From Linnemannia hyalina (Eukaryota > Mortierellomycota > Mortierellomycetes > Mortierellales > Mortierellaceae), in contig JAHRHY010000011.1 in assembly GCA_019671135.1 (NCBI GenBank), positions 1,674,001 through 1,738,000 of the forward strand: a stretch of 64,000 nt of DNA, read 5' to 3'. The position numbers and the translations under genes were made by a program. Below are positions 24,641-57,069 of this stretch, piece after piece. The notes beneath the pieces are model-generated. The model made no database searches, was not told where the DNA came from, and worked only from the letters and a program-made list of their open reading frames with translations. Numbering within the stretch: the first letter of the stretch is position 1; every line of letters begins with the position of its first letter.

Positions 24641-25779
24641 TTAAGCCTTGGTGGCCTTGACAGCCTTGTTGACGATCTCGCGACGCTATTTTGTGTCACA
24701 TCGAACAAACACGTATCGTGGTTAGAGTCAAGTCCCTGTCAGGCATACATATCACGTCCAAAAAGAACAACAGAACCAAAGTCGAATAAAAAGACGAGAA
24801 AACTTACGAGCTTCTTGTACTTCTGGAGCTTGAAGCGGTCAAAGTCGGTGTTGGAGGCACGCTGGGCACGGGAAGCGATCTTCTTGGCCCAGGAGGTCTT
24901 GGCCCAGGAGCCAGCAAGGTCCTGCTTCTCGATGGCAGCCTTGAGGACAGCCTGTCCGGCACCACGGGGAACCTTGACAACAAGGGGAGTCAAGGTCAAG
25001 CGGCGGAAAGCGTAACCGGTACGGGCAATACCGGTGGTGGGGCCCTCAATGAGAGCCTATGTTTTCAGGGAGAAGATGAAATGGGAAGAGGTGTGGGTTA
25101 GGATATGGGATCGATCAAGGAACAGGGATAGTTGAGAGTGGAAAAGATCGAGTTTTGTGCATGTCGTGGTGCTGTGGGGAGGTAGGTGTCCTGAAGTTGA
25201 GCGGCGCCTTTCTCCTAGTTTAGTCAGAGCAGGACCGAGTATCTCTTAAGTTGGTTTCAGGTCAAGGGGCGTTGGCCGCAGTGAAAAAGTGCCGTGCTAA
25301 GAACACAAAAGCTGAGTGTTCCTGTTCTGCTATGGCATGCTAGCAACTTGAGCCTTATAGCTCAAGAGCCCCGATCTGGCGCCCTTCATATTGTCCGGTG
25401 TCGACTTGTGCAAGCGTGCTATAGTCATGCTGTTGCCGGCAGGATTGTAGTCGGTTGGCTGACGCACAGTCCAAATGATCCGCTCTTTTTGCTTTGTCGC
25501 TTTTGAATCCCCTCCGTGTTGTTGAGTTGTCGATACCAGGGATCAGCACTTCACTCCTGCACACAGTGACAACGCTTCCCCTCCAATCGCTCCAAGTCGA
25601 GTTGGTGAACAGGTACCCTGATCCATGATCTTCCTTTGCCTCCTGTTCCAATTGCTCGCTTTCGTAGTCATAGAGAGAACACATACACGGTTGTGGTCAA
25701 TGATATCGACAACGACGGCGAGCTTGCCGGCATCGGGACCATAGTTGATCATGACAACACGGCCAATCTCAACGACACG
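24641..25779 (-). CDS. RPL14: 60S ribosomal protein eL14 (5' exon not located)
   Basis: Three exons join in phase 0: 25779-25687 ([20 protein letters not shown] onward, to DHNR), 25056-24808 ([20 protein letters not shown] to KYKKL) and 24685-24641 ([14 protein letters not shown], stop). The [17 protein letters not shown] and IDHNRALIEGP motifs and the conserved [17 protein letters not shown] block identify eL14, a large-subunit protein near the L7/L12 side. 138 residues are covered. The start codon lies in an upstream exon. One possibility is an exon ending at its ATG (26452-26450, followed by gtactg), which would give M-RVVEIG; I could not confirm it. The intron 25686-25057 is 630 nt, long for this locus, and might carry a small nucleolar RNA, though none was identified. 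Confidence 0.9.
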
Positions 25780-26874
25780 CTGGAAGGTAAATGAACGCTA
25801 TTGTTGGTTGATAACGAAGGAGGAGGAAAATTGGCGATAGGTTCGTTTAGTGTATTGCTTTTTGGTGGTTTGGCCTGGCTTGTTGGTAGTGTGTAAGGTC
25901 CTGGTAGGCAATTTTGGTAAGGGTTTGGTTCATAGTTCCTGATGCTGTGGGTGAGTGCCGACGGTCGGTGAGAGGTACTGGGGAGCGATGCGTTATAGGA
26001 TGTATGTATGCTTGCCCAACTTTGATGATGGGTTCCCTTCCTTGTGTGTGCTGAAGTGTTGAAGGTCCTGCCATCAAGTCTGACAAGACCCGCCCTTCCT
26101 CTGAAAGTAGCACCCATCAACCCGACAAGGCCGGAGCCTTGCTACCCGGTTTCAGCGAGCTGCCGCACAACTCCTACACCCGTTGGCCTCTCTTGTCGTG
26201 TGCTGAATCAGAGGTCCATCGCACCATGGAACTTTGATTTTGCATCAAAAACTCCATCTCCTCCATCCTGTATTTTTTTCAGCGGCGATATCGAAGGTAA
26301 TATTCGGATGCATAGGGATGTTGGGTTCCGGACGGGCGATGGGTTCTCCATGCGTTGACGATGATGATAGATGGATCGATGGCTTCCTGCATTGCCATCC
26401 ATATCCATGGATGAGTGGGTGTCGGAGTGACGTAGCCCTTAAGCAGTACCATTGTTCTAAATGATTGTAGCAAAGAGGAGGTTCCAATCACCGCACCGCT
26501 CCCGCCTAAATCTAACCTCTCTCCGCACAGGCAGGCGTGCACGGGTCAGAGAGGGATGAAATTTTTGGGTGGCTTAGCACTTCTTCTTATCTTCATCTTC
26601 GAAGTGGAGGAACGAGAGCAAATAACGCGTGCTCTTGGGCGAACAAGAATCGTAGGGGTTGGCATAGTTGAGTATGCACAATTTGCAAGAATGAGGTGAG
26701 AGGGGTTTTTCTTTAGGATGAGGTCAGTGGTTTTATTATTTACATGTATTGGAGGTTGGCTGATTCATCGCTAGTATTTTTGGTAAGGAAAGGGTATCAC
26801 TTTTCTATACATTTTTTTGTTCTTTTGGTTTGGTATAGAGGATGGTTCAATAGACATCAACTAGTTGTCCTTGT
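25780..26874. other. eL14 upstream region and 3' side of the His-rich gene
   Basis: This should contain the missing eL14 first exon, its promoter and the 3' untranslated region of the neighbouring precursor gene. No other coding sequence is supported. Confidence 0.5.
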
Positions 26875-27310
26875 TTAAGCATCGCAAGAGGAAGAGGAAG
26901 AGGAAGAGGCCTTCTTGTTCTTGCGGTGAAGGGCCATGGGAGAAGCAGCACGCTTTTCGTTCTTGTGGCACGAGGAAGAGGCCTTCTTGTGGTGAGAGTG
27001 GTTGACCTTCTTGCGGCGGAGAGCCATTGGTGAGGCGGCGCGCTTCTCGTGCTGGTGGTGCGAGTGTTCCTTTCCGCGGTGGTGGGCCTTCTTGCGGTGT
27101 AAGTTGATGGCACGCTTGTCGTGCTGGTGGTGGCTAACACGGTTCTTGTGATGAGAATGGTCCTTTCCGTGATGGTGAACCTTCTTGCGGTGCAAGTTCA
27201 CGGCGCGCTTCTCATTCTGGTGGTGCGAATGGTCCTTGCCGTGGTGGTGAACCTTCTTGCGATGAAGGGCCAAAGCACGCTTGCTCTGTCTGTGGTGGCG
27301 CGAGTGATTA
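26875..27310 (-). repeat. Coding tandem repeats of the His-rich precursor
   Basis: Protein residues about 138-282 consist of imperfect repeats of 22-29 residues, each closed by Lys-Arg. DNA of the units is close enough (e.g. the LHRKKVHHHGKDHSHH encoding segments) to suggest recent duplication or recombination. Confidence 0.85.
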
Positions 27311-27723
27311 ACCCTCTTGCCATGGGACGACTTTTTGTGGTGGGAATGGTTAACCCGGTTCTTATGCTGCGAGTGATCATTTCCATGATGCTTCTGCTTC
27401 TTGTGAAGCCCCATGTTGGCCTCAGCGTGGGCGCCGTTCACTTGGGGGGCGGCAGCAACAGTAGGGGCACCACCGGGGATAGGGACAGCAGCTGCCAGAA
27501 GGGGGTCCTGAAGATCACGACGTTGGATCTTCTTTGAAGAGGACTTGCGATGGTGAGAGTGGTTGACCTTCTTGTGGTGGTGAGAGTGGTCCTCGTTACT
27601 GTATTTGTTGTGGCGGGGCTCAAGACGGAAGGCTGTCTGTTGACCCTTTTGGCCGTGAGGATCGGCAGTCGCCATGGCGCCCAGGAGGGCCGTGGCCAGA
27701 ACGACGGAGAGAATGAAACGCAT
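26875..27723 (-). CDS. Secreted histidine-rich repeat precursor with Kex2-type sites
   Basis: Single-exon protein of 282 residues. Residues 1-20 (MRFILSVVLATALLGAMATA) are a clear signal peptide. About 51 residues are His. Lys-Arg pairs occur at 136-137, 148-149, 172-173, 203-204, 227-228 and 257-258, with Arg-Arg at 68-69. Between them lie blocks of 22, 29, 22, 28 and 24 residues. Three start A-x-x-LHRKK and continue with HH(H/R)GK(D/E)HSHH; two start AASPMAL. Earlier copies of KxVNHSHH lie at 51-58 and 121-129. The last block ends in a Ser run and one Cys. The layout fits a kexin-processed repeat peptide precursor (KEP type), with products resembling histatins or His-rich metal binders. An intact cell-wall or metal-chelating protein is the alternative. 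The function is not known to me. Confidence 0.8.
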   Translation of the reverse strand: MRFILSVVLATALLGAMATADPHGQKGQQTAFRLEPRHNKYSNEDHSHHHKKVNHSHHRKSSSKKIQRRDLQDPLLAAAVPIPGGAPTVAAAPQVNGAHAEANMGLHKKQKHHGNDHSQHKNRVNHSHHKKSSHGKRVNHSRHHRQSKRALALHRKKVHHHGKDHSHHQNEKRAVNLHRKKVHHHGKDHSHHKNRVSHHQHDKRAINLHRKKAHHRGKEHSHHQHEKRAASPMALRRKKVNHSHHKKASSSCHKNEKRAASPMALHRKNKKASSSSSSSCDA

Positions 27724-28695
27724 TATTGTAGGTGGTATAGTTTTTGAAGAGTGGGGAAGTGGGTATACGTGAGTGGTGGGTTATTTTGGCGTTGTGGGTT
27801 TGAGGGCGGGTTAGGGTACAACGAGAAGTAGGGAAAAAGAAAAGAAAATGGGAGCGGTATATATATGATCTATGGATCAGGCGAATCGAACGTGAATATG
27901 CAAGTTGTCGTTATGTCAGATGAAGGAAGAATCCGCGCGTGATGCAAAAAATCTCGAGTAGCACGAAAAATGCCGAAATGCAATGGGTGACAACAAGAGA
28001 GTACAGGATACACCACGTAGAAAAATAGGCAGGAATGGAACCGAAGTAGCCAAAGGCTGCCTGTTTTGCTCATCGTTCGTCGAATAGATTTATCATCCTC
28101 CCTTTCCACCACTTTTCTGAGTGGGCAATTTTGCTCACTGTTGATAGTCGCGGTCGCAATGCATATCCTTCCCTCCTTCGTTAAAAAGGGGAAGACAGTA
28201 CATCTTCCCAATTCCCAACCAATCTGCCTTAGCAAAAAGGACTTCCTGTTCGATAGGTATGCACAGGCAGAAAAAATGGGGAGAGAAGAGAAAGGTTCAA
28301 AAGGTCGCAGAAATGGTTGGTGGTAAAGAATTGGGTAAAATGCATTCCTTTCTGGCCCCTCCTTCTTCTGTCTGAATCCTCCCACGGATATCGTAGATGT
28401 GAATGATGACGCAGACACACCAGCAAGGAAGCAGTTCCTTCTATGACCACCAGGGTAAATTGATTATCGAAGATAACAGGATTGGGGTCAGAATGCAAAC
28501 AAAAATTAACGTTCCATTAACGTTCCATGCACATTCTGCCACATTCTGCTTATCTCTTTGATTCACAAGAATCGAATCTGCTCCTCCTTGTGTGCCGACA
28601 TCGGAGGATATGCAGCCATTTGGTACTTTGTATATGTTTTTTTTTTATTATTACATTGTGAATGTTATCGTTTGTTAGTTTTTTTTTATAGTAGT
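27724..28695. other. Intergenic: promoter of the His-rich gene and 3' end of the KCH gene
   Basis: Apart from the TATA element, I see T runs (28640-28648, 28680-28688) near the KCH stop and no convincing frame. A direct repeat of GTTCCAT occurs near 28511-28530. Confidence 0.5.
27858..27866 (-). promoter_or_regulatory. TATA box of the His-rich precursor gene
   Basis: TATATATAT lies 135 nt upstream of the ATG at 27723 on the minus strand. It is the strongest TATA match near this gene and suggests a regulated promoter. Confidence 0.6.
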
Positions 28696-30883
28696 TTAGT
28701 TGTATGGGCGATTCATGTGTGAAGGATTCTGCTGCTGGTAGCGCCCACGCTGCTGATCAACATAGCTAGGACCACCGACGACACTGCCACCGCCTACTAC
28801 ACTTCCTCCGGGGCTCAATCCACCACCCAAACCAGTAGGTGGCCCGCCAGGGTATCCTCCTCCGTATGGGTGTCCGCCGCCGCCGCCGCCGCCACGATGA
28901 TGCTGGGCTCCACTCATGTCCGTCATCATCACCGTATCGGCATAGTTGTTGCCGTTTCCGAGGCCTGCCTCGCGCGACAATACCTGTCCATGATGGAGTG
29001 GGTGCGGCTTTCCTGTCCGGGATCCATATCCGCCCACAACACTTCCTTGATTCGATCCGCTCAGAACTGTACTGGTATCGGATGGCTGGCGCCTGTGGCC
29101 GTGGGGTTGAGGTTTTGGCGCGTACTGTCCTCCACCGCCCATGTTGTGTCCTCCACCGCCTATGTTGTATCCTCCACCACCTCCGGCGCTGTAGGCATCG
29201 CTGACCTCGCTTTGATCGTCCGCAAAGTCGTATAGCTGATCCTGTCGACGGAGGTTGCGGTTATGGTAATGCTGGGCGTGATTGTCCTGACGCAACGGCT
29301 TGGTATCGCCGTCGTCGTCGACAGAGGGGGTATAGGGCCGGGGCGCAGGGGAGTAAGGTCGTGGAGGGTGCTGAGGCATTTGTTGGCGACGGTAAGGATC
29401 GTTGGGTGGAGGGAGCTGGCCTTTGCGAAGTCCTGGAGATCCGCCCATGTAAGGTGACTGGGGTTGCATGCGTGGCGTTCCTGGGGTACGTGCTCCTTCG
29501 TCAAAGAGGTTGATGTTGGGCAACGTTGGTTTCTGAAGAGGGGTGTCGCCTCCCTTTCCATTCTTTTGGTTTTTGGCTGCCTCTTGAGCACGCTCCTTGA
29601 CCTTTAACTTCACGATTTCGTCAATGCTAAAGAAATATATTGGTAGATACGAGTCAGTTACTCCGCTTCAATGCGAGTCGTGAAAATATCGACGCAGTTT
29701 TTTTTGAAGCCAACTTACCGCTTATCGATCTTGTGACAGCAGTACTCCTTGAGGTTTCCTTGAATGTGGATGACCAGAGGGATATAAAGGATAACGGCGA
29801 CAAACATCAACAGGACCGAGATCACCCATAGCGTGAGTGTGAACATCATAAGACAAATAGTAATCATCTGCATTGTTGGCAACTGGTAGTCCCAGACTGC
29901 GAGTCCGTGCGTGCTCCAGTGCCCTTGGACAAGTGTTATCAGAACGATCCCGTTAATGACCTGTCTCGGTCCATCGGCAAACATGAGTCGCTTCCAGCCT
30001 ATGGCAAAGTGAAAACAAATAGTTAGTAAACCAAGTCAGGACCAATCAAATCCCGTATAAAGAGTCTAGTTCGCTTGAATCAAAAGTACCTCTGAAAGTG
30101 AAGAAGCAGAAGAAAGCGATCTCGTCAATCTGCTTCTTGGAGTTGTGGATCTTTGAGAAGAGGCAGAAATGAGCGTAACTCTTGATGGCGTAATATCGAT
30201 AGGCGATCATGCTGGTAAAGGCATAACTGATGTCGCGACTCTGGATGATGGCCGTGGCCTTCTTCATATCCCATGCGAGTAGAATGAACGAGAGTACGAT
30301 ACAGGCGGCGAACACCCACTTGTAAATCTCGAATGAGATCTTGATGCTCTCTAACAGACATAGTTATTCCAGTGGCACGCAAGGTTCAGCGTTAATAATG
30401 AGGAGGATAAACATCAACATATTTCGGTTAAAGAGCCCTTCGGGTCGTCTTTTTTTCGACATAGTTTTCTTTGTTCCTCTGACCGCAGTGCTTGCTCGCG
30501 GATGAAATGAGGACGGCAAAGGATTTGCCAACTTACGAAAAGAAATCTGACCGCCTTGGACACCCAGGTTTGATGTCCATGTTCCCGATACTAACAAGTT
30601 GACAGCCGTCCTGAAGGAAGGAAGAAAGAGGAGGTGAGAATGGGAACAAAAAATTGTATGTCAAGTCAACAAAACTGGCCAGCAAAAAGCACCCAATCCA
30701 TTGGCAACTTTTTTTTGGTCCCAGCTACGTACCACAAATCGGCACAGTAAATGAGGATACCCTTGATGACAATAGCGAAGACGAGGGAGTACTTGAACTT
30801 TCGCCAGGGCGAGTTGTCGACGTAGTCCTCGACATCGATAAAGTCGAACTTGTGGTCCTGGACCTTTTGCCGCCTCCAGTCGT
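28696..30883 (-). CDS. KCH-family low-affinity K+ transporter (PRM6-like), 5' exon not located
   Basis: Five exons read in frame: 30883-30733, 30610-30537, 30350-30090, 29998-29719 and 29626-28696. They give about 566 residues. Family marks in order: KFDFIDVEDYVDNSPWRKFK, helix YSLVFAIVIKGILIYCADLW, then TAVNLLV, helix WVFAACIVLSFILLAWDMKK. Next come RDISYAFTSMIAYRYYAIKS with HFCLFSKI, and DEIAFFCFFTFRGWKRLMFADGPRQVING; two to three more helices follow, ending CCHKIDKRIDEIVKLKVKER. Yeast Kch1/Kch2 (Prm6) mediate K+ influx that activates Ca2+ channels during pheromone or ER stress. The 300-residue C-tail is Pro/Gln then Gly/His-rich (GGGGxNMGGGG). The first exon, normally short and Cys-rich, should end with a G to complete Asp; I could not find it. 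Confidence 0.88.
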
Positions 30884-55860: not shown

Positions 55861-57069
55861 GATTGTGCAGGATCGGTTAGCTATCGATGGGTGGTGGTGT
55901 TTGGATCAAAGGGATAGAAAGAGATGGGAGAGGAGGGGTTGAATTGAACCTATCCGCTCGAAAAGGGGGGTGAAATTGGTGGTTGGTGAAGGAAAGAAGT
56001 GGAAAGGGGAGAGAAGGACAATAGAAGTAAGAAAAAAAGGCGAAGTTTATAAATGCGGGATGAGTATTTCTAGGGAGAAAAGGAAAGAAGGAAAATAGAG
56101 TAGGGCCTGAGCGGGAGCTGAGAAAGATAGTTTTGCTTGTGAAAGAAGGGTGGAAAGCATGCATGCGTGGAAAAAAAGTCAGCCAAACTTTTTTTTGCTA
56201 TGTCGAGCGAGATAAGCCTTGAGATGAGGTGAGAGAATGAAAAAATGTGCAGGCTCTGGCTGGGACATGACATTCCGCGGCATGAATGGGGAAGTGGGAT
56301 GAGGGATAAAAGTCCGTCGCTGTTTTTCCAGAAGGATATCAATATCCATACAGCATGATGTGAGAACAATCGAGTTCACTGCCACTCCAAGGTGGAAAAA
56401 CTGTCTACACAATATGCATATGTCTATGCCTATGCCTATGTCCATGCAATATGTCTATGTCCATGCAATATGTCTATGTCCATGCAATATGCATATGTCC
56501 ATGCAATATGCCTATGGCCATGCAATATGCCTATGGCCATGCAATATGCCTATGGCCATGCAATATGCCTATGGCCATGCAATATGCCTATGTCCATGCA
56601 ATATGCATATGTCTATGCCTATGCCTATGTCCATGCCCATGCTTGAAAGGTACAAAAGAAAAGAAGGGGGTGGTGGCTGAAAGATAGGATGGAACAAGAA
56701 GGGAAAGAGTGTGAAGGGAGGACGTCGACACGTGCTGTCGTCAGGGACACAAGGAAGCGACGACATGAAGTGCATCCTGTTCATCCGCTGGGCTATTGTT
56801 CCTGTCCTAGCGTGGATACATCTGTCCCGTGCGAGCGTGGTCCATGTCAATTGTACAATGGTCGAGGGGAAAAAAAACGAAGCGTGGCGTGGCGTGGCGT
56901 CGAGAAACGAAGAGTGTAGTAAATGCGATTGGGAAGAATTATGCTGTTTATGCTTTGCTTTTATCAAAATGAAAAGAATGTAATACTAAAAAATGGAATG
57001 GGATATGAAGGGGGAAAGTGCAAAAATGAAATGGTTTGAAACCAAAAGGAATGAATGTACAAGAACACT
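55861..57069. other. Intergenic region with minisatellite
   Basis: Contains the lipase promoter (TTATAAAT-like box near 56047-56054, about 190 nt before its ATG), the minisatellite at 56408-56642 and the bystin 3' end. No gene is supported. Confidence 0.55.
56408..56642. repeat. 19-nt minisatellite
   Basis: Core unit CCATGCAATATGCCTATGG (19 nt) repeated exactly four or five times around 56518-56594, flanked by variants with TGTC, ATAT or CCTATG changes. Because 19 is not a multiple of 3 and no phase gives a stop, all three + frames encode the same 19-residue repeat. The overlapping Met/Cys/Tyr-rich frames are therefore by-products. Confidence 0.92.

Follow-up and report, generated by a model that had tools for sequence, protein, structure and literature searches.

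The gene on the minus strand at positions 26875..27723 of the window (the whole 64,000-nucleotide stretch of Linnemannia hyalina DNA that was analysed) belongs, as judged from its own sequence and those of its relatives, to a genuine and conserved family of precursors whose layout suits kexin processing. We propose, with a probability of roughly three in four, that it encodes a processed secretory pre-pro-protein of the kind of the KEPs (KEX2-processed repeat proteins), and we hold the processing of this precursor by kexin to be likely. The ORF is intact from ATG to stop, has no internal stops and has relatives in the database. Its 282 residues include 51 His, 37 Lys and 23 Arg; six Lys-Arg (KR) pairs bound five blocks of 22, 29, 22, 28 and 24 residues, which a 10-residue block, VNHSRHHRQS, precedes, and three of the five blocks contain LHRKK(V/A)HH(H/R)GK and HSHH. 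These numbers confirm what a sequence-only reading of the same DNA had counted (51 His in 282 residues, six Lys-Arg pairs, five blocks of 22-29 residues, three of them with shared motifs). That reading had also noted a signal peptide; by eye the N-terminus has the form of one, and the AlphaFold2 model places a helix there (residues 2-18).

All parts of the precursor lie on the minus strand. The putative signal peptide (aa 1-20, MRFILSVVLATALLGAMATA; 27664..27723), recognized by eye from a hydrophobic core and an A-T-A (A-x-A) before D21, is followed by a single-copy N-terminal segment ending in LEPR (aa 21-37, DPHGQKGQQTAFRLEPR; 27613..27663). A His-rich spacer with HSHHRKSSSKK and the C-terminal dibasic QRR (aa 38-69; 27517..27612) leads to a linker, first Ala/Val/Pro-rich and then His/Lys-rich, which closes with KR 136-137 (aa 70-137; 27313..27516). 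LEPR (aa 34-37) and QRR (aa 67-69), neither of them mentioned in the sequence-only reading, are predicted cut sites in addition to the KR pairs. Next come the predicted peptide VNHSRHHRQS (aa 138-147, with KR 148-149; 27277..27312) and the units, each of the first four with its KR: unit 1 (ALALHRKKVHHHGKDHSHHQNE, aa 150-171; 27205..27276), unit 2 (AVNLHRKKVHHHGKDHSHHKNRVSHHQHD, aa 174-202; 27112..27204), unit 3 (AINLHRKKAHHRGKEHSHHQHE, aa 205-226; 27040..27111), unit 4 (AASPMALRRKKVNHSHHKKASSSCHKNE, aa 229-256; 26950..27039), which has an AA-SP start and an internal RR, and the C-terminal unit 5 (AASPMALHRKNKKASSSSSSSCDA, aa 259-282; 26878..26949), also with an AA-SP start. Units 1-3 have the common plan A-x-x-L-H-R-K-K ... 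H-S-H-H. A putative TATA-like element, read by eye, lies 5' of the ORF (27858..27868, minus strand).

The single-sequence protein search found 15 relatives (3997 candidates), the profile search 22 (7996 candidates, only those sharing most words being scored) and a leader-only search with residues 1-75 of family member P0019 gave three matches among 29 candidates, none of them new, which amounts to 23 different database relatives. The genera named are Linnemannia, Podila, Dissophora, Haplosporangium, Gamsiella, Mortierella and Modicella; the six species checked, one per genus except Mortierella, are all Mortierellaceae. The fragment closest by identity, from Linnemannia elongata, is 88% identical over 15% of the query. 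A second precursor copy, 53% identical to the window copy, is present on contig C12 of the same genome, and no third copy was found in genome searches with three family proteins. The family set comprises 25 rows, these being the 23 database proteins, the window precursor and the second copy, with RPL14 parts trimmed.

Both copies lie between the same neighbours. Upstream in the window is the gene of a fungal potassium channel, KCH (28696..30315, minus strand), two exons of which match PF16944 (E=4.9e-24 and 5.6e-20), and downstream are exons of RPL14 (24739..25832, minus strand; Ribosomal_L14e E=4.9e-24; KOW E=1.2e-4, just under the cut-off). A Gly-rich tail ORF, which on its own has no Pfam match, was assigned by position as the 3' part of KCH, and a convincing ATG and donor for a first exon of RPL14 were not found between RPL14 and the precursor. 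The KCH-precursor-RPL14 block is present twice with order and strand kept (window 24739-30315; G000:C12:179120-184548), the KCH exons being at C3:1703718-1704342 and C12:183880-184548; the genome has two RPL14 matches, one per block, and in a direct comparison of the blocks the Gly-rich tail and the RPL14 exon are alike too. Judged from this arrangement, the three genes were apparently duplicated as one block, by a segmental or a whole-genome duplication. The Lys codon AAG accounts for 35 of 37 Lys codons in the precursor, 10 of 10 in the RPL14 exon, 6 of 6 in the KCH exon and 7 of 11 in the KCH tail; codon bias as a sign of high precursor expression was rejected, the KCH exon being equally biased. 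Elsewhere in the window (56410-56636) about 12 copies of a 19-base unit, CAATATGCCTATGTCCATG, form an array across which all three plus-strand frames are open.

The number of KR pairs is not in itself evidence of processing: when the mature part was shuffled 2000 times, at least six KR pairs arose in 7% of cases (6 observed against 3.1 expected, p=0.07). Since such a number is within the reach of so basic a protein, the case rests on the placement of the pairs. In the window precursor all five [LF][HR]RK cores have a KR exactly 3 or 6 residues upstream, against 0.09 expected on shuffling (p<=5e-5). The 25 rows contain 47 such cores, counted past residue 60 only, and 34 of them have a dibasic pair exactly 3 (22 cores) or 6 (12 cores) residues upstream; in all 34 the pair is KR and never KK, RK or RR. 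Of the remaining cores, three have KR at 10 residues upstream, and in the other ten KR is absent within 12 residues. When the core is narrowed to [LF]HRK (45 cores, one of which has no upstream dibasic), KR is the closest dibasic on the upstream side in 35 of 44, compared, under the same nearest-upstream definition, with 54 of 372 other dibasics in the family. The pooled counts overstate independence because the rows are related and the units within a protein are duplicates; row by row, shuffling of nine of the 25 gave p<=0.00035 in seven and about 0.05 in P0007 and P0012. In the 34 KR-spaced units KR is followed by A (23 units), D (8), S (2) or H (1); H[SA]H occurs in 28 and SS in 24, and the LxLHRK core is preserved across units. 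In the relative from Mortierella sp. GBAus27b, five near-identical 24-residue units and one diverged 25-residue unit are each bounded by KR.

Comparison of units 1-3 in pairs showed pS of 0.54-0.64 and pN of 0.09-0.17 (19 codons), and the two AASP units gave pS 0.72 and pN 0.08 (11 codons), the samples being small (about 11 synonymous sites). The copies look old, with their peptide sequence held. Between the window copy and the second copy, the N-terminal segment (12 codons) has pS 0.69 and pN 0.04, the signal peptide pS 0.44 and pN 0.15, and the spacer outside the LE[PR]R segment, which is weakly held, pS 0.39 and pN 0.21.

From this layout we infer cleavage, trimming, release and role of the peptides as follows. 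Signal peptidase would take off residues 1-20, and kexin, late in the secretory pathway, would cleave after LEPR (aa 37), after QRR (aa 69) and at the six KR sites, whereupon a carboxypeptidase would trim the basic residues. This would release the conserved N-terminal peptide, a pair of spacer fragments and, from the C-terminal part, six peptides 10-29 residues long; a further kexin cut could fall at the internal RR (ALRRKK) of unit 4. The genome has two kexin-like genes (G000:C47:1481719-1486611; L003, L004), probably a tandem duplication: P_proprotein is matched twice on C47, at sites separated by about 5 kb, one of the matches running through a stop that is probably an intron, and the adjoining exons resemble subtilases, one of them matching a solved Kexin at 8.2e-68. 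Both genes have, by eye, membrane-span-like stretches and acidic tails. DPPIV_N and S10 carboxypeptidase matches add candidates, on sequence similarity, for the Ste13 and Kex1 orthologues. The sequence-only reading had proposed a secreted precursor laid out for Kex2-type cleavage, and both the KR spacing in the relatives and the kexin-like genes support this; the interpretation given there as a whole is partly supported.

The most likely role of the products, put forward tentatively, lies outside the cell, where as cationic peptides responsive to metal they would act on nearby microbes or on the wall of the fungus. The computed charge of the six C-terminal peptides is about +2 to +6 at pH 7.4 and +4 to +14 at pH 5, and with this rise they would therefore be strongly cationic in acid surroundings; their His residues could allow the binding of Zn or Cu. 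Length and composition of the units vary within one precursor, unlike what is seen with a single receptor ligand. We favour His-rich, cationic peptides outside the cell with a response to pH and metal. The antimicrobial part of the guess is tempered because the mushroom KEP peptides whose tests are described in PMC9769878 lacked antibacterial activity.

Instead of acting on neighbours, the units or the N-terminal segment might act on a receptor of the fungus itself, as an autocrine or mating-type signal of the alpha-factor sort, which we consider unlikely. The layout does resemble that of alpha-type precursors and the LxLHRK core is preserved in the units. In addition, some units begin with the XA/XP pattern defined in PMC6339444 for Ste13-like trimming. 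An XA/XP dipeptide follows 7 of the 88 KR sites in the 25 rows (two of six in the window protein), and in six of the seven a second one comes next: the window has AASP at two sites and the L. elongata fragment at one, L. gamsii has AAPA, and the second copy has both AAPA and AARA. The DPPIV_N matches, at two sites of the genome, would also suit such trimming. However, the double XA/XP starts are confined to four rows (the window precursor, its own second copy, L. gamsii and the L. elongata fragment), and unit length and sequence differ within and between species. The starts have a bearing of their own, as Rhizophagus irregularis is the only early-diverging fungus for which PMC6339444 gives Ste13 signatures. 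Their occurrence here suggests Ste13-like starts in early-diverging fungi beyond that species, and the Linnemannia precursors may be the second such case, in one genus so far.

By comparison of the rows, the best-conserved part of the precursor is the single-copy segment of aa 21-37 and not the His-rich array. The sequence-only reading had overlooked this segment. Qxx[FL][RH]LE[PR]R is present in 24 of 24 N-terminally complete rows, with Q, L, E and the last R each in all 24 and F in 23; this R is preceded by P in 14 rows and by R in 10. LE[PR]R fits the expanded Kex2 motif LxxR, which is given in PMC8528282 with Leu at P4, Lys, then Arg, Thr, Pro, Glu and Ile at P2, and Arg at P1. The conservation of the leader is favoured by the way the rows were collected, because every one of them was found via similarity including the leader. 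The rows that also have the dibasic pattern [QHE]RR[DSENY] number 18 of 24. Another module, EL[AE]FHRK, occurs in 8 of 25 rows (L002:1183-2256, P0007, P0012-P0016, P0019) and is missing from the window copy; it is His-poor, and the dibasic closest before it is KR in three rows and KK, RK or RR in the rest. The motif [KE][TA]Q[DE]I shares these eight rows. A dual precursor, in which a variable His-rich peptide array accompanies a well-conserved N-terminal peptide (around Q-Q-x-x-F-R-L-E) released by cleavage at LE[P/R]R, this peptide being a family-wide extracellular signal of Mortierellaceae that was kept in the array-less Podila clade, is a speculative and distinctly unlikely extension of the proposal.

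Ten of the 24 N-terminally complete rows (P0006, P0008, P0009, P0013, P0015, P0022-P0026) lack KR-spaced units, although the tails of P0008 and P0009 may be missing because both models end at their RPL14 join. Seven of the ten form one Podila clade, which is resolved in the leader tree (100/98; of 21 inner branches four are starred and 13 open), has 7.8-16.1% His in the mature part and carries an extra basic pair (PKR or PRR) between the signal peptide and the N-terminal segment. Since records with units exist for Podila clonocystis and P. horticola too, a single paralogue line may have lost the array. The sequence-only reading had named homologues that lose the Lys-Arg spacing while keeping the His content as counter-evidence to processing; the seven-row Podila clade is of this sort, whereas the KR spacing is kept in other relatives.

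The Podila clade, which retains His without units, also speaks for a His-rich protein, secreted or in the wall, that buffers metal without being processed, its dibasics being by-products of composition; the very basic composition and the KR count near expectation point the same way. We regard it as improbable nonetheless. By-products of composition do not account for an exact spacing that is occupied by KR and never by KK, RK or RR, for LE[PR]R in 24 of 24 rows or for units held at the amino-acid level. Moreover, no folded domain was found: the precursor has no match at E up to 1 in Pfam or among PDB sequences, and the AlphaFold2 model, for which 17 of the 25 family rows were aligned, has a mean pLDDT of 49, reaches pLDDT >=70 in 16 of 282 residues, contains no helix of four or more residues other than 2-18 and shows no confident fold outside this signal helix.

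Even more doubtful are repellent-type surface peptides, whose Kex2 products would assemble on hyphae like those of Rep1 of Ustilago maydis: the units are hydrophilic and basic, and fibril-forming repellents tend to be more hydrophobic. What speaks for such peptides is that Rep1 is likewise a Kex2-processed repeat precursor, the peptides of which make hyphal-surface fibrils (PMC8528282). A spurious ORF or gene-model artefact, as the fusion of the family to RPL14 in four database models (P0002, P0008, P0009 and P0011, from Linnemannia zychae, L. elongata and Podila minutissima) could suggest, is rejected as practically negligible in view of the intact ORF, the second genomic copy, the 23 database relatives and the low pN, the fusions being apparently false and due to automatic joining with the adjoining RPL14 exon.

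The peptide products of early-diverging fungi are little characterised, and according to PMC6339444 the role of KEPs there is yet to be determined. The precursor family provides candidates that are short enough to synthesize and have predicted ends, in soil fungi of which several relatives are sequenced, and cleavage, metal binding and bioactivity are therefore directly testable. Among known systems, histatins and zincophores such as Pra1 and Aspf2 are each a His-rich or zinc-binding secreted peptide or protein. Compared on composition and computed charge, the precursor is like them a His-rich secreted candidate; it differs in that no PDB sequence matches it up to E=1. The Tyr-containing core of a cyclic RiPP of the ustiloxin type, which such products need, is absent, the six window peptides having neither Tyr nor Trp. 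With the alpha-pheromone precursors of ascomycetes the precursor shares a pre-pro leader, KR-bounded copies and XA/XP-like starts in some units, but its units are basic, His-rich and unequal, and at 22-29 residues with differing sequence they are not near-identical short copies. With the K1 killer toxin the cut site alone was compared, and no other likeness was noted: there, removal of a short pro-region depends on Kex2 and takes place at its terminal Pro-Arg, a Kex2 site of moderate to weak quality (PMC7021474). Glomeromycotina, also early-diverging, have [KR]R-bounded repeats in SP7-like effectors and a His-rich motif in four RiSPs; as described in PMC5293756, repeats and His motif there belong to different proteins, and no Glomeromycotina protein was among the relatives in the single-sequence, profile or leader-only searches.

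The KEPs, defined and surveyed by Le Marquer 2019 (PMC6339444) and Umemura 2020 (PMC7329392), are the closest comparison. In mushrooms, KEP peptides have been detected, kep knockouts had no phenotype and the peptides tested were without antibacterial activity (PMC9769878). Di-histidine motifs are described in two Ascomycota KEP types (PMC7329392). The sequence-only reading had supposed that peptides of this sort were not described in early-diverging fungi. This does not hold for the class, since KEPs have already been reported there (PMC6339444), with 357 KEPs in 38 of 39 Mucoromycota strains (PMC7329392, Table 1); it could hold for the precursor family only. The word Mortierella is absent from the main text of both surveys, and literature searches found no paper naming the family, which supplementary KEP tables may list. 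Cutting at KR/RR leaves seven fragments of at least 8 residues, the C-terminal one excluded, where the definition asks for at least four (PMC6339444). The largest group of similar fragments (at least three are asked for) has seven members by a shuffle-based alignment that stands in for FIMO, approximates the KEP criteria and is lenient where composition is this biased; an alignment of three units spans 19 codons, and the repeats make up 0.25 of the protein (at least 15% asked for). Across the family 7 of 24 rows, the window precursor and the second copy included, pass the approximate criteria and 17 fail, some rows being partial records. The precursor is like the KEPs in its signal-like N-terminus and its compact array of similar KR/RR-bounded fragments; it differs in His/Lys-rich units with an LxLHRK core and in a single-copy N-terminal segment ending in LE[PR]R. 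As KEPs are known in early-diverging fungi, the precursor therefore represents a new family of a known kind.
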